Origin: Nitzschia sp. DOCU1
Lineage: Eukaryota; Bacillariophyta; Bacillariophyceae; Bacillariales; Bacillariaceae
Assembly (NCBI GenBank): GCA_951394045.1
Contig: OX595988.1
Coordinates: 310,001-374,000 of the forward strand
Length of the DNA stretch: 64,000 nucleotides
Direction: 5' to 3'
Part shown: piece by piece, positions 3,336 through 41,465 of the stretch
Layout: each line of letters begins with the position of its first letter
How positions within the stretch are numbered: the stretch's first letter is position 1
Made by a program: the position numbers and the translations under genes
The notes under the pieces: generated by a model
The model's input: the letters and a program-made list of their open reading frames with translations, nothing else
Told to the model about the DNA's origin: nothing
Databases searched by the model: none

Positions 3336-3937
3336 CTTTGATTTACGTAGTGTCGATAAAAATGGAATGCGCTCAAAATGTGAGACCAAGACGCCGACCA
3401 CGGTCGGGAACTTTGGGTGTACGATTTCGAACAATCGGGATAACTTCCGCCTTTGGACGCAGGTTGGGAAAGTGTGAAAATCGCCGGGGAGAACAACCTC
3501 ACGCATTGTGTGAAATATATGCCATCTCACAAGCGGCAAGCGAAGGGCCTACCATCATTTATGACTGGTTTCGCTTTCTTTCACCAGAAGACAGTGCATG
3601 AAATTGGACAAAAAGTCGACTCCATAGTCGGGCGAACCATAGATCGACAAAGGAAAGTTCATCTACCCCGAAGAAATCAAAGGTCGGCCCAATCAAGTAA
3701 GTAACATGATACACAGATATCGATTGAGCCCCCTCCAAGGGCGCGCGGGTGGAAGAAGAACTATGTCACTGTTCCTGGTATTGAACTTGGATCATCACCC
3801 AGCGACTGCTGACTAAAGAATACCGACCCGTTAAACGGCCAATTTAGCGCTCGCTGCTCGGCACTCGATTGCAATACCCTTCTCGCGGTGAAAAGAGGGA
3901 AGACCATTGCATCTGCTGCGCCTATTATTATAACTTT

Positions 3938-6900
3938 GGGCTAAAATTTTTTGCCGCGTTTGCCTGCGAGGCTAGATTTGGGGGGCAATATTTTGACTTA
4001 TTGGAGCGTCAAAATTAATCGAGCATGTCGGACGGCCGGAATAAGTCAGCTTATTGCCTCTTCGGTGACGTCAGCAGCACACTTCCGGATTATTCGGGAC
4101 TCCTTTTGCCTCGCACCACTCCGACAGCCGATGACGTCTATTTAAAGCCCCATTACGTGTGCAATTCTTCCTCCCGTTCGCCAGTGGGTGCTCGATTTGG
4201 GGGCGACTTGCAAAGCGATGGCCGGCACGATTGCATTGGAGGCGGACGATAGCCACCGTCGTCGTCGCCGGGGTTGTCTTTCATCATTCATTGTTTGAAA
4301 GATAACCATGATAGAATATGATGCCAGTATCCCTGAGGACTCTATAGAGCCCCCTATAGTACCTCATCCAGCAGAAAATGCTATTGTTGCTCGTTTGCAG
4401 GCAGTAGCCCACAGTGTGGCGAACCAAGCTGTGCCGGAGAACACTCAGGTGGTGTATGGTCGAGTGGAGAAAGAATGGGAAGCCTACTGCAGTCATATAG
4501 CTAGCAGGGATGATCCATTCCCTACTAGCATGAATGCAAACAAGGTCTATGACTTTATGTTCTACCAAGTCTTTCGCACTAAAAAGGGACAGTCTGGCCA
4601 TGGTTTTGACCCCCTGGACTACAAAGACGTGCTGGATTCATACCAGGCCCACTACCAAAAGAAGGATGATGACCCCAACTATGCAATTCCTCATCCTGTT
4701 AATGGCCTTGGTCCATCTGCAATCCAGCAGTACAGAGCTGGGTTGAAAAAGATCCATGATAGCCATGTAGCCACAGGGTTGACTGGTTTTGGCTGGGAGT
4801 TTGTGTGGAATGCGCACTCAAAAGATCTGGTAAAGATGGCTGAGCAGCGACAGGCCAGGCACAAAAAGGAAACCTATGAAGAGAAAGCTGATAAAATCTT
4901 TGGTCCCTGCAATGCAGTGGAAAGATTTGATGATCTAGAGGATGCTTTCTTTCAGAAGAGCAAGTCTGGGAGATACTGTCTTCAATGGCTCCGCAATAGA
5001 TTTGCGTTGCTGTTTTCAATCGCCGGCCTATTGCGGTGCGAAACGCTGCATAAGTGCGAACTGAGCGACATGATGAAAATTATGGTTAAAAAAGATGAGG
5101 ACGTGAATCCATTGTGTGTGATGATCATGCAATTTGGGGAAGGTAAGCCTATTTTTTCCGCAGTGTTTTTTACTTACAGAATTTCCATCTAAGTAAACCT
5201 CTAATTGAACGAAACTGCAGGCAAAACCAACAAGGGCAGGGTGCTCTATGGCCGTGCTACACGCCATAAGAATGTTCTGCTGTGTCCTTTAGGTGCACTA
5301 GCAATGTACTTAATGGTCAGGTTCGCTCTGACTCAAGAATTTAGTGAGGAAAACTTCGACTGGACAAACAACGCATCTTGGTTCTCGGTGAAGCTCCTTA
5401 TTTCGGGAGTGGGCACCGACTACACTAAGAGCATGAAAACCAGCACTTATGCGAAAGCAGTAAAAGCAATACTACTGCATTTGGGCCTTGCTCTTACCCA
5501 CTTAGCGCACCTCGGCCGAAATATGGGGGCTAAGATCCTGGAAATGCTGGAAATAGAGAGTGAGGAAATTCGTCGCCTCGGCAATTGGAATCCCAGCATG
5601 CAGGCTGCACGATACTCTACCAAGCTTCCAATGAAGGCCATTCGTCGCTTGGGAGGATTTGCTACTGGGAATGGCATTCACTTCAACAAAAGAACTGTAG
5701 TGATTCCCTGCCAAGAACTGCAAGAGCAAACTCCAATTGGGCGATGGGTGTTTCATGGACTGGCGCAAGTTCTCGCAGCCAATGCACAGAATGCCAAGTG
5801 CTACACTGCGCAGCATTTCCTGGAGTTCATGGTGGAGCTTAACATTATCTTCCTACAAGACATGGCAGTGATGTGTAATGAGCACCCAGATCGTCTGGAG
5901 GGGCATCCGATCATTACTCATGTACCATGCTTGGCCTCGACGGCATTTGCGGTAAGCTTACTACCGGTCGCGCGAAATACCTGGTCATTCCTTATTTGAA
6001 ATAACTGGCAATTCCATATTTGCTCACACTAAAAATATCGCTCCTTTTATCTTTTGCGCGAAATACCTGGTAATTCCTGCTATGGTGTTGTTCACTACTA
6101 CCCTACTGCTACAGGCATTCTGTGAGACAATGAAGACAGAGCTTCAGCAGGCGTCCTCCCCACTTGATGCAAGTATTGAAATGATTCTTCCTGGTGTGCA
6201 GCAGCGGCTAGACGCAAATAGACGACAAGTGTTGGATTTGCAGTCGATGCTGCAAGAGTCGCATGAGCAAATAATGCGAGAACTGGAGTCCAAGCATAGT
6301 GCAGTGTTGGAACAACTTGGGGAGTCCATGGTTGTCATGGGGCACTCCCTGATGCAGCAATCTACTTCTGTTGAAGGTGCTCGCGAAATGGAGTTGGATA
6401 TGCCGGTGCCTCTTCCGCCACCACCACTAGCACCAACGACCATGCTCCAGTCCATTGACCATGCGAGAGAGTCCAACATGAGGGCTCAGGACTGCTACCC
6501 AAGCCTTCATGAGTTGTGGGGTCACTTTCATGGGACGAATAGCAGGTTTCCTACTGACGTTGAGGGCGGTATGGCGGCTCTCCATAGCAAGTGGAAGGCA
6601 AGATGGAGGAAGCACCATGCCCCAAAGGAAAACAAGAGGTTCAGCAAGCTACTGCGAATCATCCAGGCCATTGAGAGGAAGGCCACATTGGAAAACATAA
6701 CTAACGACGACGTCATCAGGGATTGGAAATCTATCTTTGCAATAGAATGCAAGGGCAAGCTCTCCAACATGCTTGGCTACTTGCAACAACAAGAAATCAT
6801 CACCAAGGGCAAGCCAAGAGGAAAATTCGCGACTGAATAAGAACTACATGGATTTAAAGAGTTTAGCTTAGCTACTTCACTAACCAGTAGTTTATTATAC

Positions 6901-7503
6901 ATGACTTTGCAAAAGCTTTGATCAGTTCCAAGGTAGATTCGCAAGAAATGCCTTGAAAGAGTCGCATTGTCATGGTCAAGACGCAAAAATAAAGTTGCGT
7001 TTGTGACGGTCATCGGGGCGATCGCGACGATGCCAATGCTGGGCAAAAAGTGGGGGAAGTTAAGTATGGGCACATTTCCACGCGTTTTAGCGTAGCCTTT
7101 CCGCTTCGAAAAGTTTTCGCTTTAACGATGATACGTGTACCAGGTAGTACACTTCCTACACCGAATCGATTTGGGGGCCAGAAAGTACATATTGTTTCAG
7201 ACTGCAGGGGCAGAATTGCTTTGCAAGTTTTCTTACGTGGGGCGCTCGTAAAATGTAGTACAAAAGTGGGAAGGCGTGAAACGCTCTTTTGTCAGGCGAA
7301 CCAATGCAATTATTTAAGGTCCCCCTTTTTTGGCGGCGCGGGAAAACGCATGACATCATCATGTCGTACGAATCGAGGGGACGCTCACATGCAGGAAAAT
7401 TCCCTCTTATTGCCGCCAGGCTAAATTGGGGAGGTTGAGGCAGAATTGGCCCGTCGTGCGCCGTAGGCGCACGTACCCAATGTACGGCGCGAAAATTTAG
7501 CCC
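3938..7503 (+). mobile_element. Crypton-like tyrosine-recombinase transposon
   Basis: The coding core (4308-6840) is a three-exon YR/GCR1_C gene. Its flanks are GC-richer than surrounding sequence and share motifs: an imperfect inverted match of about 13 bp (GGGCTAAAATTTTT at about 3938; its complement AAAATTTAGCCC at about 7492-7503), and four copies of a (C/T)(C/A)GATTTGGGGG-like motif, two on each side (about 3971, 4190, 7165 and 7419; the last is weaker). The outer limits given are those of the inverted match and are approximate. Cryptons move by YR-mediated recombination and usually lack long terminal repeats, so the true ends need an empty-site comparison. Confidence 0.6.
4308..6840 (+). 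CDS. Crypton-type tyrosine recombinase with GCR1_C-like DNA-binding domain
   Basis: Exons are 4308-5142, 5221-5951 and 6115-6840; the introns are GTAAGC...TGCAG and GTAAGC...TACAG. The spliced product is 763 aa with no internal stop. The catalytic set is complete: Arg243 in LLRCETL, a Lys after the splice (KTNKGR, 280-285), H375-L-G-R378, GNW 399-401 and the candidate nucleophile Tyr410 (ARYSTKLP). Residues 650-735 (LHELWGHFHG...ALHSKWKARWRKH...RIIQAIERK) resemble the GCR1_C/DUF3504 DNA-binding domain found at the C-terminus of Crypton recombinases. Residues 530-630 look like a coiled coil followed by a Pro-rich linker. An intact frame and canonical splice sites suggest a young or still active copy. 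It should cut and rejoin DNA through a 3'-phosphotyrosine intermediate. Confidence 0.85.
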
Positions 7504-9543
7504 GGCAGGCGCACGGTGTTGATAAGGTGATATTATGCTTCTCTTTCCGGACCACAAGCCCTTTTAGCGGTAGCTGGCCGCGAACAAGAGCAGGGTCTCA
7601 TTTATTGCATTTCACGTGGTAAGGAACTATTGGCCATACGGTGTCCTCTGTGTGTCGGAGGGAAATTCTGGCCGGCCTGACGTCACAACAAAAAACTTCT
7701 CGCGGCCAAAAAAGATTTTTGTGTATTCGTTGGCAACCACGGTTGCTGGTATGAAAGTGCTCTTCTCTCCAAAGATACCTAGGCAGGTCCAGCGGTACAT
7801 TCCATTGAGATCATTGTCCGCCACGAAAGAGAAGGAAGACGCGGGCGTCCGTCGATGTTTGCGCTTGGGCTTTCGTCCAAAATCCAGAGTGACTGCTGGG
7901 GGTGGGTGCCGTAGAATGCGGGTAGGCGGCACATTGGCGTAACCACGGTGCTTCTGTTTCTATCCGAAACAAGTCGTCGTCGATGGGCCGGTATTACGCA
8001 GCAAGATGAAGCGCTAGACGATTGATGATCCTCGTGCTGGACGTGCACAGTTGACTTTTTCTGTGTGATTGCGGCGAAAAATCCAGCCACAAATCAACGT
8101 CCATGGTGACACCATCTTCAAACGGAACAGAAAACTAATTGGGTGCGGGCACACAAGAGAAAAAGCAAGAACTCTCGCTCGATAACATTGGTACCAGTTC
8201 CATAAAGACCTAGCACGTTTTTGTGGTGACTCAACGAGGACTCGACGGCCCTCGGAATTGTTTGGACGACGTTGACGACGAGGACAAGTTCTTCGAATCA
8301 CTGCACAGGAGACAACACGCGCATCCAGCGCCTGAAAAAGGATGGGAACGTGCGGTAGTACATCATCATGTGGTTCAATTGCGGACAACGATGGTGTGGT
8401 CGCTAGTGCTCTCAGAGAGTGGGCGTCGTGAGAACAATAACGATTTACAACTTCAATTCACAACTACTAGCAAGACGTCGAACATCCCTTTACAAGCAAA
8501 AGAGGTTGTTGTTTGTTCAAGCCGTCGGAAGAGGGGATGGTTGTCTCGACGACGACGAGCGACGCGGCCATACCCCCGGCTCTAGAAACTTTCACCCCAC
8601 CACATGATGCAAATCGATCATTTCTACTATCTGTATTAACATTGCGGGTTTGGTCGAAAATCATCCGCGCACTGGTGCTAGTGGACTCATGAAGAAGAGG
8701 AAGAAGTGTTTCTAGTACTAGCATCCTGTACTAAAAGGAGCAGTTCTAGGGGAATAGGATAGAGTGGGTGTGACGTCCTTGTAGCAGTGTTGAACATTCT
8801 TGTGGAAATGTGATGCGTTTCTGCCCGCGCTTTCACTAGTTTGTGTACGGTACCAGAAACATCAAAAAGATGATCCGATGAGCTATGTTATGGTAACACT
8901 CGACTAAAAGAAGGTGAGTGTAATAGTGGTAGTATAACGGCTGCAGTTAATGATTGCAATAGCCTGATGAACCGTAACGGTTTACTGCTAGTCGTCGTAC
9001 GACTATTACTAGCAGCTACTGCTCATGATGCAACACTCTGTGATACTAGCTAGAGAAACAAAATCAGCGATGTTGCAATCCGTCCTTTGCACTAGAGGGT
9101 AGAGCGGAGAAAGGAAATAGTCGAGAGTCGTCGTCGTTCACCACTAGACCGTACTACCGAACTGATACTAGTTGTGCCGCTGCTACTACTACCAGCTAGG
9201 AAGTGCTACTACGTGGCAGAATCATAAGAGAAAAACTACAAACGAGGCGTCGAGAAGACAGTTCGAGTAACAACAAACTAGGTAGACCAGTAGTGCAAAT
9301 TCAAACGAGAGGATAGGTAATAGAATGCGTGGAGGTCTATGTCTAAACCCCGCGTCCCTCCCTCGCTACCAGAAGTAGGGGAACCCCAACCTTCTGCTGG
9401 ACAACGCTTGTCTACTCTTTAATCACTACGCGTCACTTCTAATGTTTGCCTTGCCTGCGTCACTACTCTACTACTTTCATGATACTTGTTCCGTTTCCAA
9501 TCCTACACAATAATCAATGATAGAATAATATAGACTATTCATT
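6841..9543. other. Crypton right flank and gene-poor spacer
   Basis: The part up to about 7.5 kb belongs to the Crypton flank. From 7.6 to 9.5 kb the overlapping short ORFs on both strands (60-133 aa) have no recognisable domain and read as chance frames in GC-rich sequence. From 8.6 to 9.5 kb there are many stop codons and CTAGTA-like repeats of the sort common across the spacers of this genome. I see no gene. Confidence 0.5.
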
Positions 9544-28299: not shown

Positions 28300-29032
28300 A
28301 TGGTGGGTCTCGTTTCGGGGATGGAAATACGATTGTGATTGTTGGGGATTGGATGTCACCGGCGGGGGAAATGATGAGAACCCTCCCTTCCGACCATTGG
28401 ACGTTTACAACTCGACGAGTGTGGGGCGAGGGCATGGGTGGATCGCGTTGTGCAGAGAGGAAATGCCTGGCATTATCAGTGCTTCCTGTTCAACGAATTC
28501 CGAAAGGATCCCTGATCTTTGCCCAAAGCCTCGCCTCTCGTCTTTGGAGGACCGTTTGCGCGCCAATGATGTTGTTTGAGATTTGTCAAGAATTGACCTC
28601 TTACGTCGGCGCCCTGGGTCTAGTCTTTGCCTTGTCTTTGAGGTCTTTCCGGGGCTTTGTGTGCGGGGTTGTGTTGGATAGTTCAGAGTCTGCCTGGCTG
28701 AGAATCTATTTTGTCATTTTCAAGCCCAGTCGTCATCATTGGCATGACTGATGCATCTAACGTTTTTGTTTCAATTTCTCCCCCCCCTCCCCCCTCCCCA
28801 GGCTCTTCCACGAAACATTCGCAATCGTACCAACAAATTTGATAAAAACATCACCAAGAGGGGTCAAGTTCCAGTCGGGAAAGCTGCCGAGCGAAGCGAA
28901 GAATCGCACGTCCCCAAGACGTTGATATTTTTCTTTTTGTTTGTGGTCGTTGGATCGTCCTTGGTGCAAGTCTTTAATCTCTTTCGAGGCGGTAATGGGC
29001 CTCCACCTCCGATTATGGAAGAGGAGCCATAA
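28300..29032 (+). CDS. Stress-associated ER protein SERP1/RAMP4
   Basis: Exons are 28300-28302 (the ATG alone) and 28802-29032, with a 499-nt GTGGGT...CCCCAG intron. The product is 77 aa: MALPRNIRNRTNKFDKNITK followed by RGQVPVGKAAERSEESHVPK and one C-terminal membrane segment (LIFFFLFVVVGSSLVQVFNLF). The pattern N.(K/R)F.KNI.(K/R)RG.V plus a tail anchor is that of RAMP4/SERP1, a small protein of the Sec61 translocon that stabilises membrane proteins under ER stress. The C-terminal tail GGNGPPPPIMEEEP is lineage-specific. Without the intron the ORF would need a start inside intronic sequence, so the split start codon model is preferred. Parts of exon 2 recur at 30,992-31,070 and 37,415-37,640. 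Confidence 0.83.
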
Positions 29033-29911
29033 AAATAATATTGTTGGGAGTGGCAGTATTATAGTTATATAAAGAAGGGACAGAAAAAGACGAGCCTCGT
29101 CTCGCCAACGACGCCGTGTCCAAAGTGGAAAGCTACGCTCTACTAGAGAGAGAGAGAGTCAAACCCCACTTCGGCTGGAGTGTGCGTATAGTGTTCTACG
29201 TTTGACTTTTGATGTTGTATTTCTCCAATTTCTTCATATTCTAGCGTACCTTCTCGTCATCCGATTCCATCATCAACTGGGATGAAAGGATGTATCGTGC
29301 AGGTAATAGATACTGCATTGTTGGCTTGACCAGCACGATGTTAGTTCCTTGGGTGCGGTTCTTTATCTAGCACCATGAGATTTGCACTCACGCGGTCACT
29401 TTTGCACTCTACTATTGTGACGTTGCCTCCCATAGTAACACCCCAAAGATATACTGCTGACAGAATGGCCCGCACTGTTGTCGTATCGGTTGTTCCCCAG
29501 TTGAAAGAATAGTTGCCGGAGCAGCGGTGTGATTCGACCACCAAGAATGGTCGTATCCAAACCGACCGGGTAGTAGTAGTCCGGCATTCGACAAGTCAAC
29601 TTCACGAATAGTAGTACTAGCCAGAGGAACCTGTTTTTGTCGTCATGGTGAGAGGATACTCGTATGGCATCAGAGACCTACAATGTGGTCACCAGCGTCG
29701 TTTCGGAAGTGCCATGATAATCCGACTATTAGAACATGCTGTTACAGATGAGCAAAAAAATAATATTCATTCGCTTTTGAGTACTTCATAAAATTTACTA
29801 GCTCCAAATCATTGTCCTGCCAGGCACGATCCCCGCAGTCCGGCGAATGATTTAGCATTGTGACCCGCTTGCTAATAAAGCCAATCGGAGCTTTATTGGA
29901 AAGCAAAGTGC

Positions 29912-30867
29912 CTACCACATGAGTTCGTCTTGCTTGACACCCTTGTTGTCGTACAAGTCGAAGTGCTTGGGCCAGTAGTAGTCCTCCATGTCAGGGGGGG
30001 TGCTGATTTGGACACCTCCCAAAACAGCGATCATACCGTCGGCAACCGAGCTGGCTCCGTTCTTGACGATTTGTTCGATCATCTTTTGCTGAGCATCTTG
30101 GAGCGAGTAGGAAAGCTCAACTTGAAGCATGTCCTCACTGGCAGCGGCCAAACGGTCGCCATAGGGCATCAACAAAGTTTCGACATTGCCCTGTTGGGCG
30201 TCGATGATTCCGGGGCCTTCCTGGGGGTTGGCACCTCCACGGACCGACAAAACATGCCCGCAGGCAGCGGTGGCAGATCCGCAGCAAGGTCCACCGCTGG
30301 CACGTCCTCGTCGCTCAACGGTACCGACGGTACCCTTGGAGTCAATACCGACGTGGGGTCCGTAAACCAACAAGCAGTTTCCACAGTCGGGAATGTGGGA
30401 GCACATGGCTCCGAAAGAGGTTTGACCTCCGTGGGGGAAACCGGCCAATCCTCCCATGCTGAAGTGTTCTCCGTAGTAGTCCAATCCAAAGGCCTTTTCC
30501 AAAGGACGAGCCAACTCATCACAGCACAAAGATGTGGCAACAAGGGTGTTGGACTTGGTGAATCCAGCCTTGGTCAACTTCTCAGTGACCTTACCAACCA
30601 AGACGCTGTTGGGCAAAGACTTGGGAAAGACCTTGGCAATCTTAGCCTGAATTTCCATGATATTAAATTGACGACGGAAAATGAGAAAAATTAGAGATAG
30701 ACACAGGCTATGACGAATTTGATTTAAAAAGAGATGGAAAGTCAACCGAATTCACAATGGCCCGGTTCAAAACCGATGCGCAGTAGTTTACTTACAACAG
30801 TAGCAGCCATTTTGGGTGATGATTGATTAGAACTACCGAAAGAGAAAAGTTGTCGCAACAAACTCAT
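29912..30867 (-). CDS. LCIB-type (theta) carbonic anhydrase, copy A
   Basis: Exons are 30796-30867 and 29912-30646; the 149-nt intron is GTAAGT...TTCAG. The product is 268 aa. The splice is supported by copy B, where the same exon ends are kept while the intron differs by indels. The LCIB_C_CA domain is clear: SLCCDELARPLEKAFG (Cys66-Asp67-Glu68, Arg71), FSMGGLAGFPHGGQTSFGA, VYGPHVGI (His122) and PCCGSATAACG (Cys146). A Cys-His-Cys zinc site is expected in this family. Members interconvert CO2 and bicarbonate; in diatoms they belong to the CO2-concentrating mechanism. The N-terminus MSLLRQLFSFGSSNQSSPKM is short and not a clear signal peptide, so the compartment is uncertain. The TGACGT elements upstream suggest CO2/cAMP control. 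Confidence 0.88.
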
Positions 30868-30919
30868 TTTATGAGAAAAGGAAACGACGAGATCCTTTCG
30901 GGCCACCTTGATGGGAGTG

Positions 30920-30992
30920 TGACGTAATTTCCAAAAAGTGGTGGGGAGGGTCATCGGAATGAAGATGCCGGATCTTTCGGAATGTGACGTCA
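30920..30992. promoter_or_regulatory. Paired CRE/CCRE-like elements upstream of theta-CA copy A
   Basis: TGACGTAA at 30920-30927 and TGACGTCA at 30985-30992, centred about 55 and 120 bp upstream of the ATG. Diatom CO2-responsive carbonic anhydrase promoters are known to use repeated TGACG(T/C) elements bound by a bZIP factor. The same pair with nearly the same spacing is in front of copy B. Confidence 0.55.
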
Positions 30993-31070
30993 AAGCTGCC
31001 GAGCGAAGCGAAGCAATCGCACGTCCCCAAGACGGTGATAATTTTTCTTTTTGTTTTGGGTCGTTGGATC
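30992..31070 (+). pseudogene. SERP1/RAMP4 exon fragment (left piece of unit B)
   Basis: Matches SERP exon 2 from KAAERSEESHVPKT to the end of VVVG with several substitutions and small indels, then stops at GGATC where the inserted element begins. The right-hand continuation is at 37,415. It is not a functional gene. Confidence 0.8.
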
Positions 31071-31257
31071 TTCGCCTTTTTCCGGTCACCGCACGATATT
31101 CTTCGTGGTATTTGTCGTCCAGTTTGGCCGGAAAATTCCAAGTTTCGCGCGCAGCGCGAAACTTTCGGGCCGAGCGAAGCGAGGCCCGCCACGGTTGAAA
31201 TGACGAAACTTCCGAAACTTCGACCGTTGGGCCGTCGCGCGCGGGGACCAATCGACG

Positions 31258-31905
31258 ATGGCGCCGAAACTCAAACGAGCTACGACTCCTTTCGACAAAA
31301 CAAGTTTGCTTCCAAACGACTTGGTGGCCATCCACCAACAAGGCATTCAAGACAAGATGAAACAACAAAGCAACAATCATCAAGAAGAAGAAGGCAACAT
31401 GAATGAAGCGAGAATCCACCGCACCGACCGCAAAGAACAATCCAACAAGCGACACACCAAGCGCAAGCAAGTATCCTTCTCATGCAAAGGGGACGATGGT
31501 ACCTTCATGGCGAATAGCTATCAGTTTGCTGCCACAATTTATGGGCACCCACGCCCATACAAACGTCCAGGGTATGGTGTCGCCAATGGCAGACGGTATA
31601 ACCCCAACAATGCCGACCAAGTTGGCTTCATCAAGGCTCTTGAAACCCTCTACAAACAAGATACTGCGACATCATATTTTGGATCTGTGGAGGTTCAGAT
31701 TACGGTTCTATTTTATGTTTCGAAAAAGAAGAATGCTGATATTGACAATCTGCTAAAATTCCTGCTTGATGCACTACAAAAAGCGAGGCTTTATGACAAT
31801 GATATCCAGATTAGTAAAGTTTTGGCTGAAAGACGATCCGTGCAGGATGAAGATCTTGCAAGGACATACTTTATTGTAGAGAAAAGAATAATTGAAATAG
31901 ATTAA
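31258..31905 (+). CDS. RusA-family Holliday-junction resolvase
   Basis: ATG at 31258, 215 aa, single exon. Residues 1-70 are a hydrophilic extension. The domain starts near 90: AATIYGHPRPYKRPGYGVANGRRYNP matches the N-terminal G.P.P..RPR......Y segment. The catalytic block is ADIDNLLKFLLDALQ, with Asp161, Asp163 and Lys167, followed by LYDNDIQI with Asp180/Asp182, the acidic set that binds the metal in RusA. RusA cuts four-way junctions symmetrically; it is a phage/prophage protein in bacteria and rare in eukaryotes. Its stop lies 51 bp from the stop of the convergent YR-like gene. All catalytic residues and the frame are intact, so it is probably functional or recently so. Confidence 0.82.
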   Translation: MAPKLKRATTPFDKTSLLPNDLVAIHQQGIQDKMKQQSNNHQEEEGNMNEARIHRTDRKEQSNKRHTKRKQVSFSCKGDDGTFMANSYQFAATIYGHPRPYKRPGYGVANGRRYNPNNADQVGFIKALETLYKQDTATSYFGSVEVQITVLFYVSKKKNADIDNLLKFLLDALQKARLYDNDIQISKVLAERRSVQDEDLARTYFIVEKRIIEID

Positions 31906-31956
31906 ATGACCTAGATTGATGATTATAGCAACTTAGTAGTGTTAGTGTTCTAGTGC

Positions 31957-34308
31957 TTACTTGCTGGGCGACATCACACTCTTGACGAAGTAGGATAGCA
32001 GTGTGCCAGCACAAGCGTTGGCATCCTTGCTATTGGTGGTTGCAACCCCACCGGCTGCCTCTCTTTGTTTCTTTTCTGCCAAATAGCGAGTACCCAGGCC
32101 AAGGACATTGCCCTTTAGTTTACCAATGGATTTTACATCACCAATAGGGATTCCATCCATCATAGCCCTCATCGCAACTAACACCGTGTACTGGACATCG
32201 TCGGTTAGCTTTTCCAACTCCTCATCGTTCAAACTATTACCAATGGAAAGCTGCTTTTCCTGATCAGGTGTCCAGGAGGCTTGCAGTAGCTCCATTGCTG
32301 CACGGTACTTGGACTGATCTTTGTCGCTGAAAATGGAGAGGTGCAGCTTGTGCAGTTGACCACGATGCCTCTGCAACCTCCCGTCCCCATACATGTCTTG
32401 TAGTACATGCTTTAACTCAACTCCGGACCCTCCCTTTTTAGCAACAAGTGCTGCCTTTGATCCATATACCAGCATTGCCTTCATCTTGTTGCTGGGAGTA
32501 ACAGCTTTTGCAGCAACACTAGCCATCAATCCACTTTCAGGGCTGGTCACATGCGACGCCGCTGTCGGTAGGTTGTTGACAGAATCTTCATCTGAAACAT
32601 CGTCAATCTCAGCCAATCTGCGTTTACTGCCCAATAGTTTCATCAATTTCTCGTTTTGTTTGATGATCACAGCATTCTGTGCCATCAATGCACTGTGCTG
32701 CGACAGCACTTGACTCAACAGCATGGATTGTTGCTGCTGGATCGACTGTTGCTGCTGCAGCATTTCTGTATGTTTTCCCACCACAGGTACAAGATTTTGA
32801 CGGTTCGCATACTCGATGCCAACATTATTGCGGCTCCTGAAATCGTCACCAATCGCTTGGCTCCATTTAGTCAGAAGCTCCATTGCATGGTTTGTGTCTC
32901 TTGCAATATTCTGCTCCAACATAACACGGATCAATTTTTCATTCATGGGATTTGTCGTGTTGTACTTTGCCAACGACTGTGGAAAATATAGAATTGCAGA
33001 AGCAGTGCACGTCCATAAGAAGGGAGTCAAAAAGATGCTGTAGTCCAAGCCAACAAACTTTGGACCCGAGATAATGTAGAGATGGTTGTGAAACTTGCGA
33101 ATTTTCTGCAGGTCGTCTTCTGGCAGTGTTGGCGGAATGCGCATTGGTAGATTGTTTGCATTTGGATCAAACCAACCTGCCAAGGAGCAGAAAGGAGGAT
33201 AAGTCAATGCTGGCGCCACATCACGATATGCGGGCTTGTCTGCTGTATCGCTGGGTGCCCAGCAGCCCCTTGTTACTCGTTGCTCACGAGTTATGTCACG
33301 ATTGTTGATTGCAAGAAAATTGTTGGACCCCATGCGCAGACTTTTGGCTGTAGTGCTTTTGCGATATGATTGGTCACAATATTGACGCAGCCACTTAGTC
33401 GTTTGAGTTGCAACTGATGCATCAGAAATGGCATGCAACGAGGGGAACATGAATTTGGCAATTTGTGCATCGCGTTCCGAGCGATACAGCCCATTCTCAG
33501 CTGCAAAAAAGCAAGCAAATGCATGGTAGAGGTCTGTCTCCAAGTCTGAATCCGGGGGATTGCTCCCAAAAGTAAGGGGTGTCTTCTTCAACACCTTGAG
33601 TTGACGCCACATGGTTTCAAAATGTTCAAAATTGGTGTCCCACACACAGTCGTCATACCGTAGAAACTTGGGCTCGCCACCACGACCTACTCCATAGTAT
33701 GTCATCATAATGATGGCTCGCTTCTCAAAGTTCTGATTTGTTCTTGTTGCTTCCTTTATAATCATTGACATGATGGAGTGCAGGTCCCTTCCCTGCTTTG
33801 AACTCCAGTTAGAATTGCTTCGTTCCTTGAAACGAACATACTCAGAGCGTACAACACGATACAGTGGTCGAGTATTTGCGTCCTGTGAGTCTGTGCCCTT
33901 GTCAAACTGACTTCGTTTTGCAATGTTTTGGAGCCGGTCCACAACGTCTTTGGACCATTCTTCATCATTCCAGGCCTCGTGACTTGGAAACTTTGCTTTG
34001 AGGGCCTCTCGTACATTCCCCCAGTACTTTGCCTTGGACGAGGCCTCCAAGAATTTTCCACTTGTATTGTTCTGTAGAATCTTTGATTCAGCATACCACT
34101 CTCCAAATGATTCTAGAAGAATTTGCATGTTATCAGCTTCGACGTAGACTTCAGTGATGTCATCCAGAAGTGGGTCACCACGGTCCTCTTGGAATCGATT
34201 GAAGGATGCGATGCCAGAATTACGCAGAGCCTTGGTTGCCTTTGCACGACCATACATCGTCTTGCGTAGGCTAACATTGTTCGTTGCAAGGTTGAGCTGA
34301 GTAGACAT
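31957..34308 (-). CDS. 783-aa tyrosine-recombinase-like protein of a mobile element
   Basis: ATG at 34308, single exon, no internal stop. Residues 195-365 look like a YR catalytic domain: YYGVGRGGEPKFLRYDD (Arg209, then Glu), AKSLRMGSNNF (Arg325, with Lys322 where His of HxxR is usual), TRGCW (347-350) and a candidate nucleophile Tyr361 in DKPAYRD. The loss of the box-II His is unusual but is seen in some YRs. Residues 50-190 would be the helical core-binding domain. Residues 510-560 are a Gln-rich coiled coil (EMLQQQQSIQQQQSMLLSQ), as in many algal YR elements. The C-terminus (640-783) is unknown. The gene is convergent with RusA and divergent from the zinc-finger YR. The YR assignment rests on motif order and context, not strong identity. 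Confidence 0.62.
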   Translation of the reverse strand: MSTQLNLATNNVSLRKTMYGRAKATKALRNSGIASFNRFQEDRGDPLLDDITEVYVEADNMQILLESFGEWYAESKILQNNTSGKFLEASSKAKYWGNVREALKAKFPSHEAWNDEEWSKDVVDRLQNIAKRSQFDKGTDSQDANTRPLYRVVRSEYVRFKERSNSNWSSKQGRDLHSIMSMIIKEATRTNQNFEKRAIIMMTYYGVGRGGEPKFLRYDDCVWDTNFEHFETMWRQLKVLKKTPLTFGSNPPDSDLETDLYHAFACFFAAENGLYRSERDAQIAKFMFPSLHAISDASVATQTTKWLRQYCDQSYRKSTTAKSLRMGSNNFLAINNRDITREQRVTRGCWAPSDTADKPAYRDVAPALTYPPFCSLAGWFDPNANNLPMRIPPTLPEDDLQKIRKFHNHLYIISGPKFVGLDYSIFLTPFLWTCTASAILYFPQSLAKYNTTNPMNEKLIRVMLEQNIARDTNHAMELLTKWSQAIGDDFRSRNNVGIEYANRQNLVPVVGKHTEMLQQQQSIQQQQSMLLSQVLSQHSALMAQNAVIIKQNEKLMKLLGSKRRLAEIDDVSDEDSVNNLPTAASHVTSPESGLMASVAAKAVTPSNKMKAMLVYGSKAALVAKKGGSGVELKHVLQDMYGDGRLQRHRGQLHKLHLSIFSDKDQSKYRAAMELLQASWTPDQEKQLSIGNSLNDEELEKLTDDVQYTVLVAMRAMMDGIPIGDVKSIGKLKGNVLGLGTRYLAEKKQREAAGGVATTNSKDANACAGTLLSYFVKSVMSPSK

Positions 34309-34700
34309 GATGATGATGGTAGGTGAAAAACAATGATGGATGGAGACTTAGTAGTACAGTACTTGCAGCCGACCTGTGAGCAATGACAATGACGACGAGT
34401 TGAGTCTTATTGCATCCACAATTTTGTCGCCGACACGATTCATAGGTGAGCACATGATTACAGTACATACCTAGTACATACCCCGAAAGTTGTACGAAAC
34501 TTGTACGAAACTTGCCTCATTTAGGGCGGAAAAAGGCAAAAGAGACTGGGCTCCCAAGCCCCCTTTTTTCCAGGAAAATCACGCAAATTATTTTTTCAGC
34601 CAAGGCTCCTTCAGTTTTGTCGGCCATCCGGGACGACATTATTATCCTGCACTCCTTTTGGCGCATTGGCCACAAAACAATTCGAGCCCTCCTTAAAAAA
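34309..34700. promoter_or_regulatory. Shared intergenic region of the two divergent YR genes
   Basis: 392 bp between the start of the 783-aa gene (-) and the zinc-finger YR (+). It contains a short tandem repeat (TTGTACGAAACTTGTACGAAAC, 34,491-34,514, quoted in overlap) just beside the plus-strand leader. It could be a two-way promoter. Confidence 0.3.
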
Positions 34701-37245
34701 ATGTCAGAAGAACCACGAGGCCCACGCAATGCTATTTGCGCTCTAGGGGATGACTGCAAGCACCCAACTACAAAGCAGGTGACAAATAACGAGCGATGCA
34801 TTGATTGCCACCAGAATGTCCACGCCTGCTGTGGTGTATTTGTTGGGGACCATCCTGACCATTTAAACCACAAGTGCTATAAGTGCGTCGTGGCCAATGC
34901 AGCAGCAGTAGCCCAAGAAAATAACGAGGATGCCGATGACGATGCCGACGACGATACCCACAACGATACCGACGACGACGATGCTGACATCGATGCAAGA
35001 GACAACAGAACTCCTCTAAGAAGGTCTAGGCAACCACCGCCTGCTGACCAGCACAATGAAGATCTGAGGCAGGCGATTCGAAACAACATGAATTTGGATC
35101 ATGTGAAAAGCAACTCCCGTGCCCCAGCTACATACTACAAGCATGGGAAAGAGAACGAACGCTTCATCCTGTGGCTCTACCGGAGTGAATACGTCAATCC
35201 GTGCTTAACTGCAAATTTCAATCTCTTATTGGAGGAACATGAAAAGGACATCGAGTACCCCAATAAATTGTTGAAAAAGTGTGAAGGATTATCACAGCCT
35301 GAATGTGATATCCTTCAAGAAGAATTCCGCAATGTTGAACTTAAAAAGTTCATTGGTGAATGTCTTGGTGTAGGAGGACACCCCCTGGGTCAGCAGACAG
35401 TCTACAAGAGCGGCGATATGATGTTGATATGAGTAGAAAGTTTACCATGGGCGTGGGGGAAATTCTGAAAGGTGTCCAGCGAGTATCAAGAATAGCTAGA
35501 CAAGCAGGTGAAGGTAACATAGAAGAGGGCAAGCGGGAGCTTCCATACAATCTTTACTGCAAGTTCAATGAATGGTGCGTCAATGAAGGGTCAAAAGAAG
35601 CAGCATTTGAACGGGCCTACAGTGTACATACTTGGAACCTTGCATGTCGTGGTGACTCTACAGCTAGGATTCATACAAAGCACTTGATCTTCCGTGCAGA
35701 TTCAACTGGAATTCCATTTGCCCATTCAAAGGAAGATCAAGAGGGAGAGGACCGGCGAAAGAAAAAGCCACAGCACGTGTATGCTAATCCTTTTGATTAT
35801 CGTGCTGACTACATGTCAGCAACGTTTGAATATTTGGTCTGCTTTCCAGGTGTACTTGCCGACCGGGATGGCCCACTCTTTCCCACTCAGGGAAAAGGCG
35901 AGTTGGTTAAAAGCCGCTTCTCCAAGATTATGGGTAAGCTTTTGACTAAGCACAAGGAAGAGCTGGGGCAATTTGGCTATGAGGTGGAGGATGTAGGAAT
36001 ACATTCATGGCAGCAAAGGCGCAATATCGTTTATGAGTTCCGGGTCAACCGCTGGTCCAAGTGCAGCAGCCACTTGTATTCGTGGTGGGCACACAATGGG
36101 GGCTGTAAGGGATGTCTATGTGCTGCACGAGCGAGCTGGAGACCACTATTGTGGCCATGTCTTGAGTGGCCTCCCTATCAACCAGCCCGAGTTTGCAGCA
36201 TCCCACCCTGATTTTGTGCCTGTGAAGGACGGGATGACCGACACTGAGCTGGCTACAGAGAAAGCCAGGGTGGACTCTAGAGTGAATGGGGCTCTAGACT
36301 TATTATTTGGAAAAGCTCAAATTGATGCCATCCCCATTGTCCGAGTGTTTCTGAGAATTGGCCTTGCGAGCCATTTGAAACATCGTAGTGCAGTTGCAGA
36401 GTCCTACCCTCTCAATTTGCCTATCCGCAATAGTCCCTTGTTCACAGCCATTGTCAGAGTTTGTGAAGATATCACTGCCCTGGGAGAATGGTGGACAGGC
36501 ATACGCAACTGGAATCCCTCCCCATGCTATGTTGCTTGCTAGGAACGAAGAGCTCAAAACGTTAATCAAGGTGGTGATCCCGGAAATGGAAAAAATGATG
36601 GATGATCAAACAATGTGCGGGAATCTATCTGAGTCCAGGATGCACCAAGTGGTTCAGACCGAACAATTCAGCATTCAACAAGAGCTGCAGAAACTCAAAG
36701 ACCTATTCTTGGCTACGCAGCAAGGCCAGCAACAGGCCATTGCATCAATTGAAGGTGGGCAAGCAACAGCATACCAGTGATGGCTTATTGCAGGGGAATT
36801 CCGTCGTGTGCCACTGGACTGGATATTTCCAATGGGATCTCTTCTTCATGTGTACCAATATTGACACCATGGGGACGAGGAAAAAAAGATCTCTCCATTG
36901 AAGAAGCTTGAGCGTAGGGATGTTTCATGTTTCAAGGGGGATAAGAAGTGGTATGTGAAGAATCTTGTGGAGGTGAAACGGATCTTCCACCTCTTGGATG
37001 CAACAGCTGCTGAGTTGGGTTTGCTGAAAACAAACCCAACTCGGGAGGACACCAACAATGCATTTTATGGGGCCAGAGAGGCTGCGTTTGGAAGCATCAC
37101 AAACCAGACCCCGAAAGGTAGAAAGCAAAACTGGTCCAAAATTGGATGGTCCACCATGGTGAGGTATATCCTCAAAAAGAGCAAAGGGGATGGTGATGCA
37201 GAAGAAAGGAGTATCAATAGCAATGGCAGTGTCATCAACTTTTAG
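34701..37245 (+). pseudogene. Zinc-finger tyrosine recombinase, multiply frameshifted
   Basis: The ATG at 34701 opens MSEEPRGPRNAICALGDDCK, with a Cys/His cluster (CALGDDC...CIDCHQNVHACCGVF...HKCYKC) that looks like a treble-clef or PHD/RING-type zinc finger, then an Asp-rich linker. The frame breaks near 35,430 and continues in the next (35,438-36,010): LACRGDSTARIHTKHLIF with the catalytic Arg, IPFAHSKEDQEG, HVYANP and VGIHSWQ. It shifts again near 36,020 to AAATCIRGGHTMGAVRDVYV (candidate Tyr) and AGDHYCGHVLSGLP. More shifts follow near 36,500 and 36,800, ending at 37,245 with WYVKNLVEVKRIFHLLDA. The order is that of a large YR family common in diatoms and other algae. At least four frameshifts mean it is inactive. 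Confidence 0.7.
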
Positions 37246-37414
37246 TAGTGAATATTAATGTCCTCTTGTCGTCGACTTGTGCAAGCAAATATTTATGTGA
37301 AAATATTTGGCTCTCTGGACTTGCCAAAAGTTGTCGAGTAAGTCCATGACCCCTACCAGGGGGGTAGTAGTGTAAATGTCGGCCAAAGAAGACCGGAAAA
37401 TTCGCCAGATGTTA

Positions 37415-37640
37415 GGATCGTCCTTGGTGCAAGTCTTTAATCTCTTTCCAGACCATTAGCCATAAAAAATAATATTGTTGCGAGTGTCAGTATTATCTTT
37501 ATACAATAAAGAAGGGACAGAGAAAGACGAGCCTCGTCTCGCCAACGACGACGTGTCCAAAGTGGAAGGCTACGTACGCTCTACTAGTAGAGAGAGAGAG
37601 AGAGAGAGAGTCAAACCCCGCTGCAGCTGGGGTGAGGGGT
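37415..37640 (+). pseudogene. SERP1/RAMP4 3' end, right piece of unit B
   Basis: GGATCGTCCTTGGTGCAAGTCTTTAATCTCTTTC-like sequence (SSLVQVFNLF in SERP) followed by a deletion of most of the Pro/Glu tail, then CCATAAAAAATAATATTGTTG and the 3' spacer as in unit A. It continues the piece that stops at 31,070. A GA microsatellite lies at about 37,590-37,608. Confidence 0.78.
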
Positions 37641-39439
37641 AAGTTCGTATGACGAGAGAGAGTGTGTGTGCGCCTCGTAGTTTAGGGGTGCCATTCAGTT
37701 CGATGAGTAGCAGTAGAGACTCTATCAATAGCGACTGACTCTAGCTAGTATCGCACCATGATTGGTAGCTCCCATAAATCTGACCCGTTTGGACCGCTTT
37801 AGAGCACGGGCTATCTCTCGCGGTCAGACTGCGTGTACAGATTCCATTTCTGTACGTGGTTTCTCGGTCAAACTAATCAACCGACCATGATTTTTTGTCC
37901 CATAACCTATTAATTTGAATGAGGGCGTGCAGGGGCTATCTCTTTAGGGGATGTGGATACCCCCGTATCCACATTTGCCTATCTTTGTTACTACCGTAAC
38001 CACCAATCAGACTAGAAACCTTTTTTGTGACGCACACCAATGTATTTGGCGTAGCCAGCACTTTTCTTTTTGTATGGGCAGCATCGGCCCAATTGCCTAC
38101 CTTTACCACTTACTACTTGACGGAAGATGGTGAGCCACATTTCGACAATACTTTAAACAGCTCGTCATCCTGCACAGACCACTCATTCTGTTAAAGTAGA
38201 TATACTGTATTGTTAATCAGGACATTCTTGAAGCATTTGTTGAAGTAAACTGTTGCTAAAGCTGCTGGTTACGTTTCTTTCCCCTGTAGTTCTGTTGCAC
38301 TTCCCTTTGTCTTGATCTCTGGTCTTGCTACTTGCTCTTCATGTAATTGCGGAGGGCAATATTGCATTCTTTGATGCAGTTGAGGATATCTTGTTTTGAG
38401 TCAGGGTCAATGTCAAACTATGCTGGTCTTTTGCAGGCCTCTGTTTCGATAGTGCTGGTTGCTACACTATGAATGCCATTTGCTGGTTTGGAGTAGGATT
38501 AATGCCATGCATGTAACAATTCTTTTTTATTTATGCAAACACAGACCCATTGTTGAGCTTGGATTCCTCAGTTCCCCTTAAGTATGAAAATATCAACTTG
38601 CATTATGTATATTTATTGCATTCTCTTGTTTTGCATAGCAAAGAATCCTTTGCTTGCAAATACATAATGAAAGATTCCTTCATTTTCCTTTATGCATCTT
38701 CTGTTTGTGGTTAAAAAATCATAACAAGAGAATATTTGTTATAATTTTTTTAAACGCAAGATTCCATTTTTAATCTCGCAACAATGATTTAATGAAGAGA
38801 AGGACTCTAGGTTCCTTTTGAAGAAATATCAGCAATTTTGAGGGCATTTCAGATTTCTATTTGCTTTCCTCCAGCATACGGAACATTTGTTGCTCATTAC
38901 TAATGGTCAACCAAGATGCAAAATTGAAAATTGGCAGCATGATTCAACATTGAAATCCACGACTCCTTCATCGATGGCAAAATGATACCCACAACATCAC
39001 CGTCAAAATGACGACACTTCAGATGCCACCTGTCAATTATCTTATCAAGGATAACGATGATTCACCAAATACTCCAGGTGATGGGAGGCTCTACCATGGT
39101 TACTTCAATGACTCTAGTGCTGCTGGTGATTATGTTCTCAGGCTTGTAATGCTCAATTCCCACAATTGATTAGGGCTGACATTATGGGAGAAGTGACCCC
39201 CAAGCTCAACATGGGCTTAGAAGCAACAATTTTCTTCAATGGCAGGGTCCTGGGCATCTTAGACAGCAACTCCAAGAAAATGCTAAGTCGCTCTCGGTGG
39301 TCTCGGTTCTCCTCATGCCACATCATACGTGGGCCTTTATCCATAAAAGAGAAGTATCAAAACTTTTTGGCTCGTGGACCAACTTGTTAATGCCACCTCA
39401 CGCACGGCTCTCCAATCTGCTCCACAAGCTTGTCGGGGC
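37641..39439. other. AT-rich gene-free part of insertion 2
   Basis: Within the sequence that interrupts unit B (about 37.64-44.10 kb). No ORF has recognisable content. A perfect hairpin lies at 37951-37974 (ATGTGGATAC, CCCC loop, GTATCCACAT). The 38.2-38.9 kb part is unusually AT-rich for this window, which suggests foreign or old transposon sequence. Confidence 0.45.
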
Positions 39440-39675
39440 CACAGAAAAGGCTGAGATTGCAAAATTACTCCAGAGGCACAAGCTCCCAGGCCAAACACAA
39501 AACTTAGAGTTTTGGGACCTTGTGGTTGGAGAACTGCCACCAAGAAGGCATATATTTTCAAGCAGGGCTGACTTCTCTGGCCATCATCCACAGAGAGAGT
39601 GAAGCTAGTAGCATAAAGGAGCATTACAACAATCTGTTTTATGGGAATGAGAGTGACATATAGTGACATATTTTT
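39440..39675 (-). repeat. Left arm of a long inverted repeat
   Basis: Its reverse complement aligns with 42,675-42,745 (TATGTCACTATATGTCAC, then CAAAACAGATT) and, after an interruption of about 840 bp, with about 43,590-43,735 (ATGCCTTCTTGGTGGCAGTT, CCAACCAC, CCCAAAAC...GTTTTG). Similarity is moderate with indels. Confidence 0.65.
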
Positions 39676-40420
39676 ACACCATTTTGAGATATTTTTCAGT
39701 TAAGTTGCCAACAGTGCTTCCCCTTCGGAGGATGGGGGCCATCTGGCTTTGGCTTACAATGTGATTCGATTCATGAATCTTTTCAGTAAACTCCAAATGC
39801 TCACAGAACTGGGTAAACTCATCCAAGGTATGCTCAATCGGCTCGAAACCTTGCAGGATCATCTGTTGACGCCAACTGCTTGGGATAGCAAACTCTGCAT
39901 GTTCAATGATTTTGTCATTCGGATCGAACATCGCCAAATAATGGTTGAGGTGTTGGAATTCGCTAATGTACTCCTTCATTGTCATCTCCGACAACTTGCC
40001 ACACAAGCGGCGCATGTAACATTTCTGAGTCTGCAAAGCTTGAGCCGGTAGAACGTAGTTAGTCACTCCTTGGAGTGTAACTTTTAGGTTTTGAATCGAT
40101 TTGTTCCCAGTGGTCACTGCGGTCTCTTCGAACCTAGCAATAGCCTTTCTGGTGAGGATACGACGGTAGAAATCGTACCTCTGTGGACCTGTGGTCAAGT
40201 TCTGACCTTTGCTCACTTTATCCACCTTATCTTGCAGATGGAACCAGGTCTCGGCCGACTCATCGCCGTTGAAAGGAAGAATTGAGAGTTCAAACTGAGT
40301 CGAGTTGGGATCATTGGGAATGTTGTGACACTTGAAGGTGACAAGCTTCTCTTTGTTTACCACCACTTCCGCCTCACGTTGAATTGGGATTGGGCCCCGT
40401 TGGAAGCCCTTACACATCAT
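39674..40420 (-). CDS. Gag-like protein of an LTR retrotransposon (pol missing)
   Basis: 248 aa; ATG at 40420. The string AETWFHLQDKVDKVSKGQNL, then GPQRYDFYRRILTRKAIARFE, QALQTQKCYMRRLCGKLSEMTMKEYISEFQHLNHYLAMF and IPSSWRQQMILQGFEP follows the order found in Gag polyproteins of diatom retrotransposons (retrotransposon gag domain, PF03732-like). No zinc knuckle, protease, reverse transcriptase or integrase follows in any frame; the ORF ends exactly where the inverted repeat begins. It is therefore a captured or truncated fragment, although its own frame is intact. Gypsy-type is more likely than copia-type, but I cannot settle it. Confidence 0.65.
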   Translation of the reverse strand: MMCKGFQRGPIPIQREAEVVVNKEKLVTFKCHNIPNDPNSTQFELSILPFNGDESAETWFHLQDKVDKVSKGQNLTTGPQRYDFYRRILTRKAIARFEETAVTTGNKSIQNLKVTLQGVTNYVLPAQALQTQKCYMRRLCGKLSEMTMKEYISEFQHLNHYLAMFDPNDKIIEHAEFAIPSSWRQQMILQGFEPIEHTLDEFTQFCEHLEFTEKIHESNHIVSQSQMAPILRRGSTVGNLTEKYLKMV

Positions 40421-41465
40421 GTCATTTCAAGGGATAGTGACGCCGGCCGCAACAGTTGAGTTTGCAATCTTCATTTGGAATGTCTTGGTCTTGATCACAA
40501 TGATTGTGGTGGAATGTTAACACTATGCACTACATCATTTGTAGGATTGAAATAGTTATGAAAATTATGACTAGCTTTAGAAACAAACATGTTCATCATG
40601 TAGAGTTGTCTCGTAGCCTGCCGTAGCTCTAGTAGGCTTGAGACACTTGACATGTACCGGCACCAATGCGAACAGGGGGTCTATCCAACATGTGGTAGAC
40701 TAGCTATGATGTTCCACTAGTGTTCCTTGGAAGTCGTCATCTACTCTGAAATAAAGTATAGTTGTTTCAATGTCATTGAGATGCCAGATCTTAGATGGCA
40801 TTGACACTAGGATTGCATCCGCATACGACTAGCTGGAATTGCCTGTGATGCTTCCATCGCACAACATCACATCTTTGGTGACATCAATAGGTAATGGGCC
40901 TTGTCCGACAACGTCCATGTCTGGCCTGGCGTCCGTGTTAGTGTGGGATGCCTTTGTCGTGCTACGTCATCACATATGACTAACTAGACTAATAATATTC
41001 GTTCCAACAAGTGGACGTGTAAAGAAGCAGTGTACTGCAATAGACCTGAACTCCAGATAGTGATAAAAACAGGGTCTTTTTGGACTCTGTTTTCTGGGAA
41101 AAGTGATGTTCTTTCTTGGCATTGATCGCTGCCTTTTGCCTTTGGTTTGGTGCGTTGAGCCATCCCCATCAATACTTTTGGCAACTCAATGCATTGTTCC
41201 AACGCATGAGAATCATGTGTTGAGAATGAAGTGCTGGAATTCATGTCGATTCTTTGCTTACCAGGTTCGTACATTCAACTCTTTCTACCATATTATCTAC
41301 CATAAAAACAGCAATCATATATGTCGGAGGGATTCGCATCACATGCATTGTGTTCATTCGAGTCAACTTCGACAAGTTGTCACGTGGCGGCACAAAGTCA
41401 CACAATAAAGTGGCTATTGCTATTGTTGTCATTGGTTTTAACTTTGACGTTGTTTTACACATGCA
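40421..41465. other. Gene-free interior of insertion 2
   Basis: Between the gag-like ORF and the YR remnant. No recognisable ORF, LTR or RNA gene. Small ORFs (96-101 aa) overlap each other. Confidence 0.4.

Follow-up and report, generated by a model that had tools for sequence, protein, structure and literature searches.

RusA Holliday-junction resolvases are known mainly from bacteria and phages. We are aware of no account of how eukaryotic elements moved by a tyrosine recombinase (YR), Cryptons among them, complete their integration into targets with which they share only 4-6 bp. In the diatom Nitzschia sp. DOCU1 the genes of a RusA-family endonuclease and of a YR lie side by side on a repeated unit of 3.4 kb, which will be called the inner element and is compared here with the closest described systems. 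The window, i.e. the whole stretch of DNA that was analysed, comprises 64,000 nucleotides and corresponds to C4:310001-374000 of the 52-Mb genome.

CryptonS elements of oomycetes and a diatom were described by Kojima and Jurka in 2011 (PMC3212892). Cryptons have a YR as their sole recombinase, lack long inverted repeats, carry terminal direct repeats of 5 or 6 bp and are compact, and some of them contain one accessory gene, which encodes a C48 peptidase (PMC3212892). The inner element shares this anatomy: its YR is accompanied neither by a reverse transcriptase nor by a DDE transposase (Pfam recognized RusA alone), it has short terminal direct repeats within the 4-6 bp range (CGGAAA), and its accessory gene is that of RusA. 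The CGGAAA core differs from TATGG, the sequence found at most CryptonS termini (PMC3212892), which does not define Cryptons as a whole. We regard the inner element as Crypton-like by anatomy. Among the matches listed from the open-licence literature, as far as titles, abstracts and excerpts show, none described RusA in a Crypton or another YR transposon. We read the inner element as one that transposes like a Crypton and is equipped with an additional resolvase gene, and it is this RusA gene that distinguishes it.

A YR and a junction resolvase occur together on one mobile element in giant-virus elements of Ectocarpus (PMC13236599) and in polinton-like viruses of Oxyrrhis (PMC12721341). These viral elements have large genomes and an A22-like or PF04848 resolvase, whereas the inner element has two genes in 3.4 kb, one of them for RusA. 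Integron integrases are alike in the proposed principle, as the YR junction is completed otherwise than by a second strand exchange and, if that exchange is blocked, is resolved by another route; in contrast to the inner element, integrons are bacterial, their sites are folded single strands and resolution is by replication (PMC4792948). The reading that we prefer, at a rough probability of 0.45, is that the inner element is a Crypton-like two-gene YR DNA transposon with a RusA most likely dedicated to the YR junction.

Nesting, ends and copies of the inner element

The original prediction for this locus had described a 6.3-kb insertion that interrupts a duplicated host stretch, is flanked by GGATC, has an inverted sequence at its ends and carries an intact RusA, an intact 783-aa YR-like protein and a broken zinc-finger YR. 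These features were all found (Table 1). The prediction had left it undecided whether they belong to one element or to two nested ones, and comparison of the copies indicates that the block is two nested elements rather than a single one. When positions 29001-39500 were aligned against the genomic copies fetched, the RusA plus YR unit was shared from ~31127 to 34536, with nothing alignable beyond. In eight copies of the outer element this unit was missing, and the two outer parts were continuous and read CAGTTTGGCCGGAAAA, which is the inner element's site in its unfilled state. Since these copies read straight through, GGATC and the TTTTCCGGTC ends belong to the outer element; they had been predicted as ends of the RusA-YR element, for which the copies give 31129 and ~34532 instead. 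We consider this structure of the inner 3.4-kb unit highly probable.

At its junctions the inner element reads GGC-CGGAAA-ATTCC on the left and TTTAGGG-CGGAAA-AAGG on the right, and is thus flanked by two copies of CGGAAA, as compared with one in the unfilled outer copies. Five exact left ends all began with CGGAAA, a result that is partly by construction because the search pattern itself began with this sequence; the preceding bases were GC in two copies, TA in two and AA in one. The C7 copy lacks the inverted repeats of the left end, yet CGGAAA directly precedes what remains of the element. A repeat that is constant, and single in the unfilled site, fits a YR that recombines a circle with a short target of matching sequence; a duplication left by staggered cuts would be variable among sites.

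The inner element contains six instances of the octamer CGAAACTT, each of which lies at most 110 bp from the left end or at most 60 bp from the right one. In 2000 dinucleotide shuffles of the element it was found 0.13 times on average and twice at most, and the whole window contains eight, these six included. We infer that the octamers are putative recombinase-binding repeats. The left end (31129-31250), when folded as DNA, gave a z value of -3.0, with one of 200 shuffles equally stable, and the folding of the right end was not unusual (z -0.34). In the left end of the C8 copy (L020) a 21-nt inverted repeat, GGGCCGAGCGAAGCGAGGCCC, is exactly flipped relative to positions 31167-31187 of the window, with the flanking bases unchanged.

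The 783-aa protein was matched at ten places of the genome and RusA at seven. The ten YR places represent eight copies, as the pair on C8 is one copy split by an insertion and the pair at 5.34 Mb of C1 is one damaged copy. Six copies have kept the 3' end of the YR gene, and all six contain a whole RusA. Three (C4, C11 and C7) combine RusA with a full-length open YR, and in the rest the whole RusA lies beside a partial YR, which lacks the first 65 residues in the 4.7-Mb copy of C1, is split on C8 and consists of residues 385-783 only in the 82-kb copy of C14. A fragment on C14 (residues 1-59), near the full copy, accounts for the remaining RusA match. Compared with the window, the C11 copy differs at 1 of 3,410 bases and the 4.7-Mb copy of C1 at 7 of 2,985, and movement must therefore have been recent. 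The 5.4-kb insertion in the YR gene of the C8 copy (L019 ~3628-9034) has the inverted ends CTGGACCCCC/GGGGGTCCAG and is flanked on both sides by ATGCGCAT, which resembles an 8-bp target duplication.

The pairing of a YR with RusA on one eukaryotic element holds, as had been predicted, in the six copies and in a second element described below; the zinc-finger YR and the GGATC ends, which the prediction had included, did not prove to be part of it. YR copies without RusA, and RusA genes at host loci, had been named beforehand as observations that would speak against the pair. Two such YR copies exist (C1 at 5.34 Mb and C14 at 0.57 Mb), both of them fragmentary and without the 3' half of the YR gene as well, and a RusA of a different lineage occupies a host-like locus once, on C3. 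RusA is very probably an integral gene of the inner element; that it may act on the YR junction we infer.

The RusA and recombinase proteins

The RusA domain was matched by Pfam over residues 96-193 (E=1.4e-10). D161, D163, K167 and D182 are invariant in all four rows of the RusA alignment and form the catalytic D-x-D-x3-K...D pattern, with the spacing of D70, D72, K76 and D91 in E. coli RusA. Besides one protein that is 99% identical, the relatives comprise two at 68% and 60% identity and ten distant ones. The two at 60-68% identity retain the catalytic pattern and show that the family is conserved. With the RusA proteins of bacteria and phages the diatom protein shares the fold family and the acidic/lysine pattern, but the sequences are distant: a single record among 50,697 phage records was matched at E<=1e-3 (38% identity over 47%), and the two matches in viral contigs were 28-33% identical. 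The six copies differ from each other by K33R, M34T, T56P, N63S, K70N and A85V, all N-terminal of the Pfam domain, and by silent changes in codons 51, 122, 137 and 162; these six amino-acid and four silent differences are too few for a rate test of selection.

The 783-aa protein is, judged by fold comparison and its invariant catalytic residues, a tyrosine recombinase. Every top row of the VIA-align fold comparison was a YR, and R209, K238, K322xxR325 and Y361 are invariant and in the correct order in all 11 rows of the alignment; position 350 is W in nine rows and H in two. The prediction had ascribed a degenerate box II to this YR. K-x-x-R is invariant in 11/11 rows, the set R-K-KxxR-W-Y is kept, and this box II is a conserved variant; a decayed YR was rejected as an explanation on the same invariance. 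Ten relatives were found besides one protein that is 99% identical. Over 784 codons, silent changes in the YR gene of the C7 copy number 17 and amino-acid changes 9. Other searches were weak or negative in outcome: the alignment profile gave six rows against solved structures, all with E of at least 0.31 and none of them a recombinase, NCBIfam gave nothing, and PHROGs gave weak rows only. Pattern-based scans of viral contigs and genome contigs did not turn up any YR relative.

Other RusA genes and the outer element

Searched for the RusA family, the genome yielded ten places, of which six belong to family A, that of the inner element's RusA, and two to family B (C5 and C6); the others are one on C3 and one on C16. 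The family B proteins are identical to each other and 26% identical to family A. Their gene lies tail-to-tail with a probable YR gene, at a distance of 79 bp, on a second element of 3.9 kb that is unrelated to the inner one. GAAGG is present at both ends of the C5 copy and of the C6 copy (~L051 4360-8295), and C9 has an empty site. Both copies are damaged, the former being split by an insertion and the latter having a C-terminal stop where C5 is open. By eye, the probable YR gene, which occupies ~5318-7854 of L051 on the minus strand, resembles a Crypton-type recombinase. The sole supporting profile match was NDC10_II (E 0.14), a domain that we take to be of Crypton origin; NCBIfam returned a MobC row below the cut-off (E 0.0029, 16.9 bits vs 200), and comparison of the pieces with solved structures found no recombinase. 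Eight of the ten RusA places, or two of the four RusA lineages, are thus tail-to-tail with a recombinase or probable recombinase in a repeated element.

The RusA on C3 (L049 4768-5610) is extended at the N-terminus by a long stretch that may be a targeting peptide, and is apparently an ordinary host gene; among ORFs (open reading frames) of at least 120 aa within 10 kb, no YR was recognised by eye. The RusA on C16 (L052 1799-4419) has 146 aa and lies near the contig end beside a 437-aa ORF for which no Pfam or NCBIfam family exceeded the cut-off, and no recombinase was recognised by eye in its vicinity. The C16 contig begins with ~1.1 kb of short tandem repeats. Another stretch of it (L052 4570-5863), which overlaps a 391-aa gag-like ORF, is 79% identical to positions 39716-40979 of the window, which are probably a retroelement.

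The sequences outside the inner unit (31066-31128 and 34533-37419) make up a separate repeat with its own genomic copies, and GGATC heads the outer copies examined elsewhere in the genome. Its zinc-finger YR gene is split in the window over ORFs 34701-35432, 35360-36211 and 36033-36542, and is open for ~970-1016 codons, from stop to stop, on C15 and C7. Two outer copies on C7 are arranged in tandem with a spacing of 3,157 bp. On C10 (1747601-1756881, also L038) the ends of the outer element are found on short repeats that follow each other every ~1,336 bp and are possibly tandem non-autonomous copies of it. The empty site of the outer element is preserved within the window and contains one GGATC (Table 1). 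A minus-strand ORF at 29912-30658 of the window matches the LCIB_C_CA carbonic anhydrase family (E 2.3e-66).

Table 1. Features of the nested insertion, in coordinates of the window
Feature	Position	Strand	Basis
Inner RusA-YR element	31129..34532		3,398 bp plus second core; shared unit among copies, unfilled site in 8 outer copies
CGGAAA core, left, inner element	31129..31134	+	Comparison of ends among copies
CGGAAA core, right, inner element	34527..34532	+	CGGAAA in 4/5 right ends, CGGGAA in the fifth
RusA-family endonuclease, 215 aa	31258..31905	+	Pfam RusA 42.3 bits against cut-off of 22.8; four active-site residues invariant
Tyrosine recombinase, 783 aa	31957..34308	-	Tail-to-tail with RusA, 51 bp apart; invariant catalytic residues, VIA-align
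Four CGAAACTT motifs, left end	31140..31220		31140 on -; 31157, 31204 and 31213 on +
Two CGAAACTT motifs, right end	34495..34513	+	34495 and 34506
Two inverted repeats, left end	31140..31187		31140-31164 and 31167-31187
Outer zinc-finger YR element	31066..37419		Interrupted by inner element; two parts match other genomic copies, continuous where inner element is absent
GGATC, left repeat, outer element	31066..31070	+	Read in sequence; single in empty site
GGATC, right repeat, outer element	37415..37419	+	Read in sequence; single in empty site
TTTTCCGGTC, left inverted end, outer element	31078..31087	+	Read in sequence; also present in other outer copies
GACCGGAAAA, inverted partner of TTTTCCGGTC, near right end of outer element	37391..37400	-	Read in sequence
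Broken zinc-finger YR gene, outer element	34701..36542	+	Overlapping ORFs; open in C15 and C7 copies
Duplicated stretch preserving empty site of outer element	28880..28985	+	95% identity over 108 columns across joined flanks

Possible roles of RusA

In the proposed scheme the YR would bind the CGAAACTT repeats at both ends of the inner element and recombine the two CGGAAA copies, with the release of a predicted circle. The CGGAAA of the circle would later be recombined by the YR with a chromosomal CGGAAA, and RusA would cut the Holliday junction left by the first strand exchange. Completion of the second exchange by the YR may be inefficient, because the target side has the core only and no binding repeats. 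That RusA resolves the YR-made junction is, on the sequences at hand, a tentative assignment to which we give somewhat less than an even chance. A fuller version, in which the YR would perform only the first exchange at the 6-bp core, a dedicated RusA would complete integration, and two unrelated Crypton-like lineages would have taken up different RusAs independently, we consider doubtful.

Several observations weigh against the preferred reading. The YR looks catalytically complete, and RusA may thus be unneeded; RusA is absent from the outer YR element of this window. The 783-aa protein matched no Pfam family, hence no YR domain by Pfam, PF00589 was matched in two of the 11 alignment rows only (best E 0.014), and Foldseek gave no significant result for either model of the protein. 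The recombinase of the second element is only weakly recognised, and the evidence for linkage of the YR gene to RusA comes from one genome. The CGAAACTT octamer was chosen after the end sequences had been viewed, with either strand counted, and one of 100 whole-window shuffles contained at least eight of it, so that its weight rests on its clustering at the element ends.

RusA might instead serve the circular form, acting on dimers or on replication and recombination intermediates, with the YR alone responsible for excision and integration. The complete catalytic set of the YR agrees with this, as do the YR-bearing algal viral elements, which carry a resolvase of another type that is discussed for replication or recombination intermediates (PMC13236599, PMC12721341), whereas no replication gene was found among the ORFs of the 3.4-kb element. 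On balance such a role appears nearly as likely as resolution of the YR junction, though it would not be our first choice. It is improbable that RusA was captured as a mere passenger and takes no part in movement. Accessory genes of another kind, such as that of the C48 peptidase, are present in Cryptons (PMC3212892), and all copies are young, so that the lack of decay is only weakly informative; however, RusA is whole in each of the six copies with the 3' end of the YR preserved, its domain is without amino-acid changes among the copies whereas the N-terminal part varies (the numbers being small), its relatives at 60-68% identity have preserved the catalytic pattern, and the equivalent tail-to-tail place of the second element is occupied by a different RusA.

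The two remaining explanations concern the extent of the element. Viruses of the polinton-like or giant-virus type combine a YR with a Holliday-junction resolvase (PMC13236599, PMC12721341), and the unit could accordingly be the remnant of a larger YR-bearing virus. This is very unlikely. In all fetched copies that preserve both ends the unit comprises 3.4 kb and two genes, and the resolvases of those viruses (A22-like; PF04848) are not RusA. The pattern-based search found no viral contig encoding a YR relative, and a viral relic was rejected. The long ORFs of 31129-34532 are those of RusA and the YR only, with no capsid, packaging ATPase or polymerase gene. A composite of 6.3 kb, whose RusA would move jointly with both the 783-aa and the zinc-finger YR between the GGATC ends, is suggested by the position of all three genes between these repeats in the window. 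It was excluded, as the fetched RusA-YR copies share the unit only, none of them continuing into the outer sequence, and eight outer copies without the unit display its unfilled site; for the window this explanation is refuted, and it retains next to no credibility.

Under the preferred reading, that of a Crypton-like transposon with a RusA dedicated to the YR junction, the presence of YR and RusA side by side suggests an undescribed two-enzyme way of element movement. That an element supplies a Holliday-junction resolvase of its own points to junction resolution as a limiting step, and the inner element is a 3.4-kb system with young, open copies in which this resolution can be tested. In it, RusA would also have a mobile home in a eukaryote.

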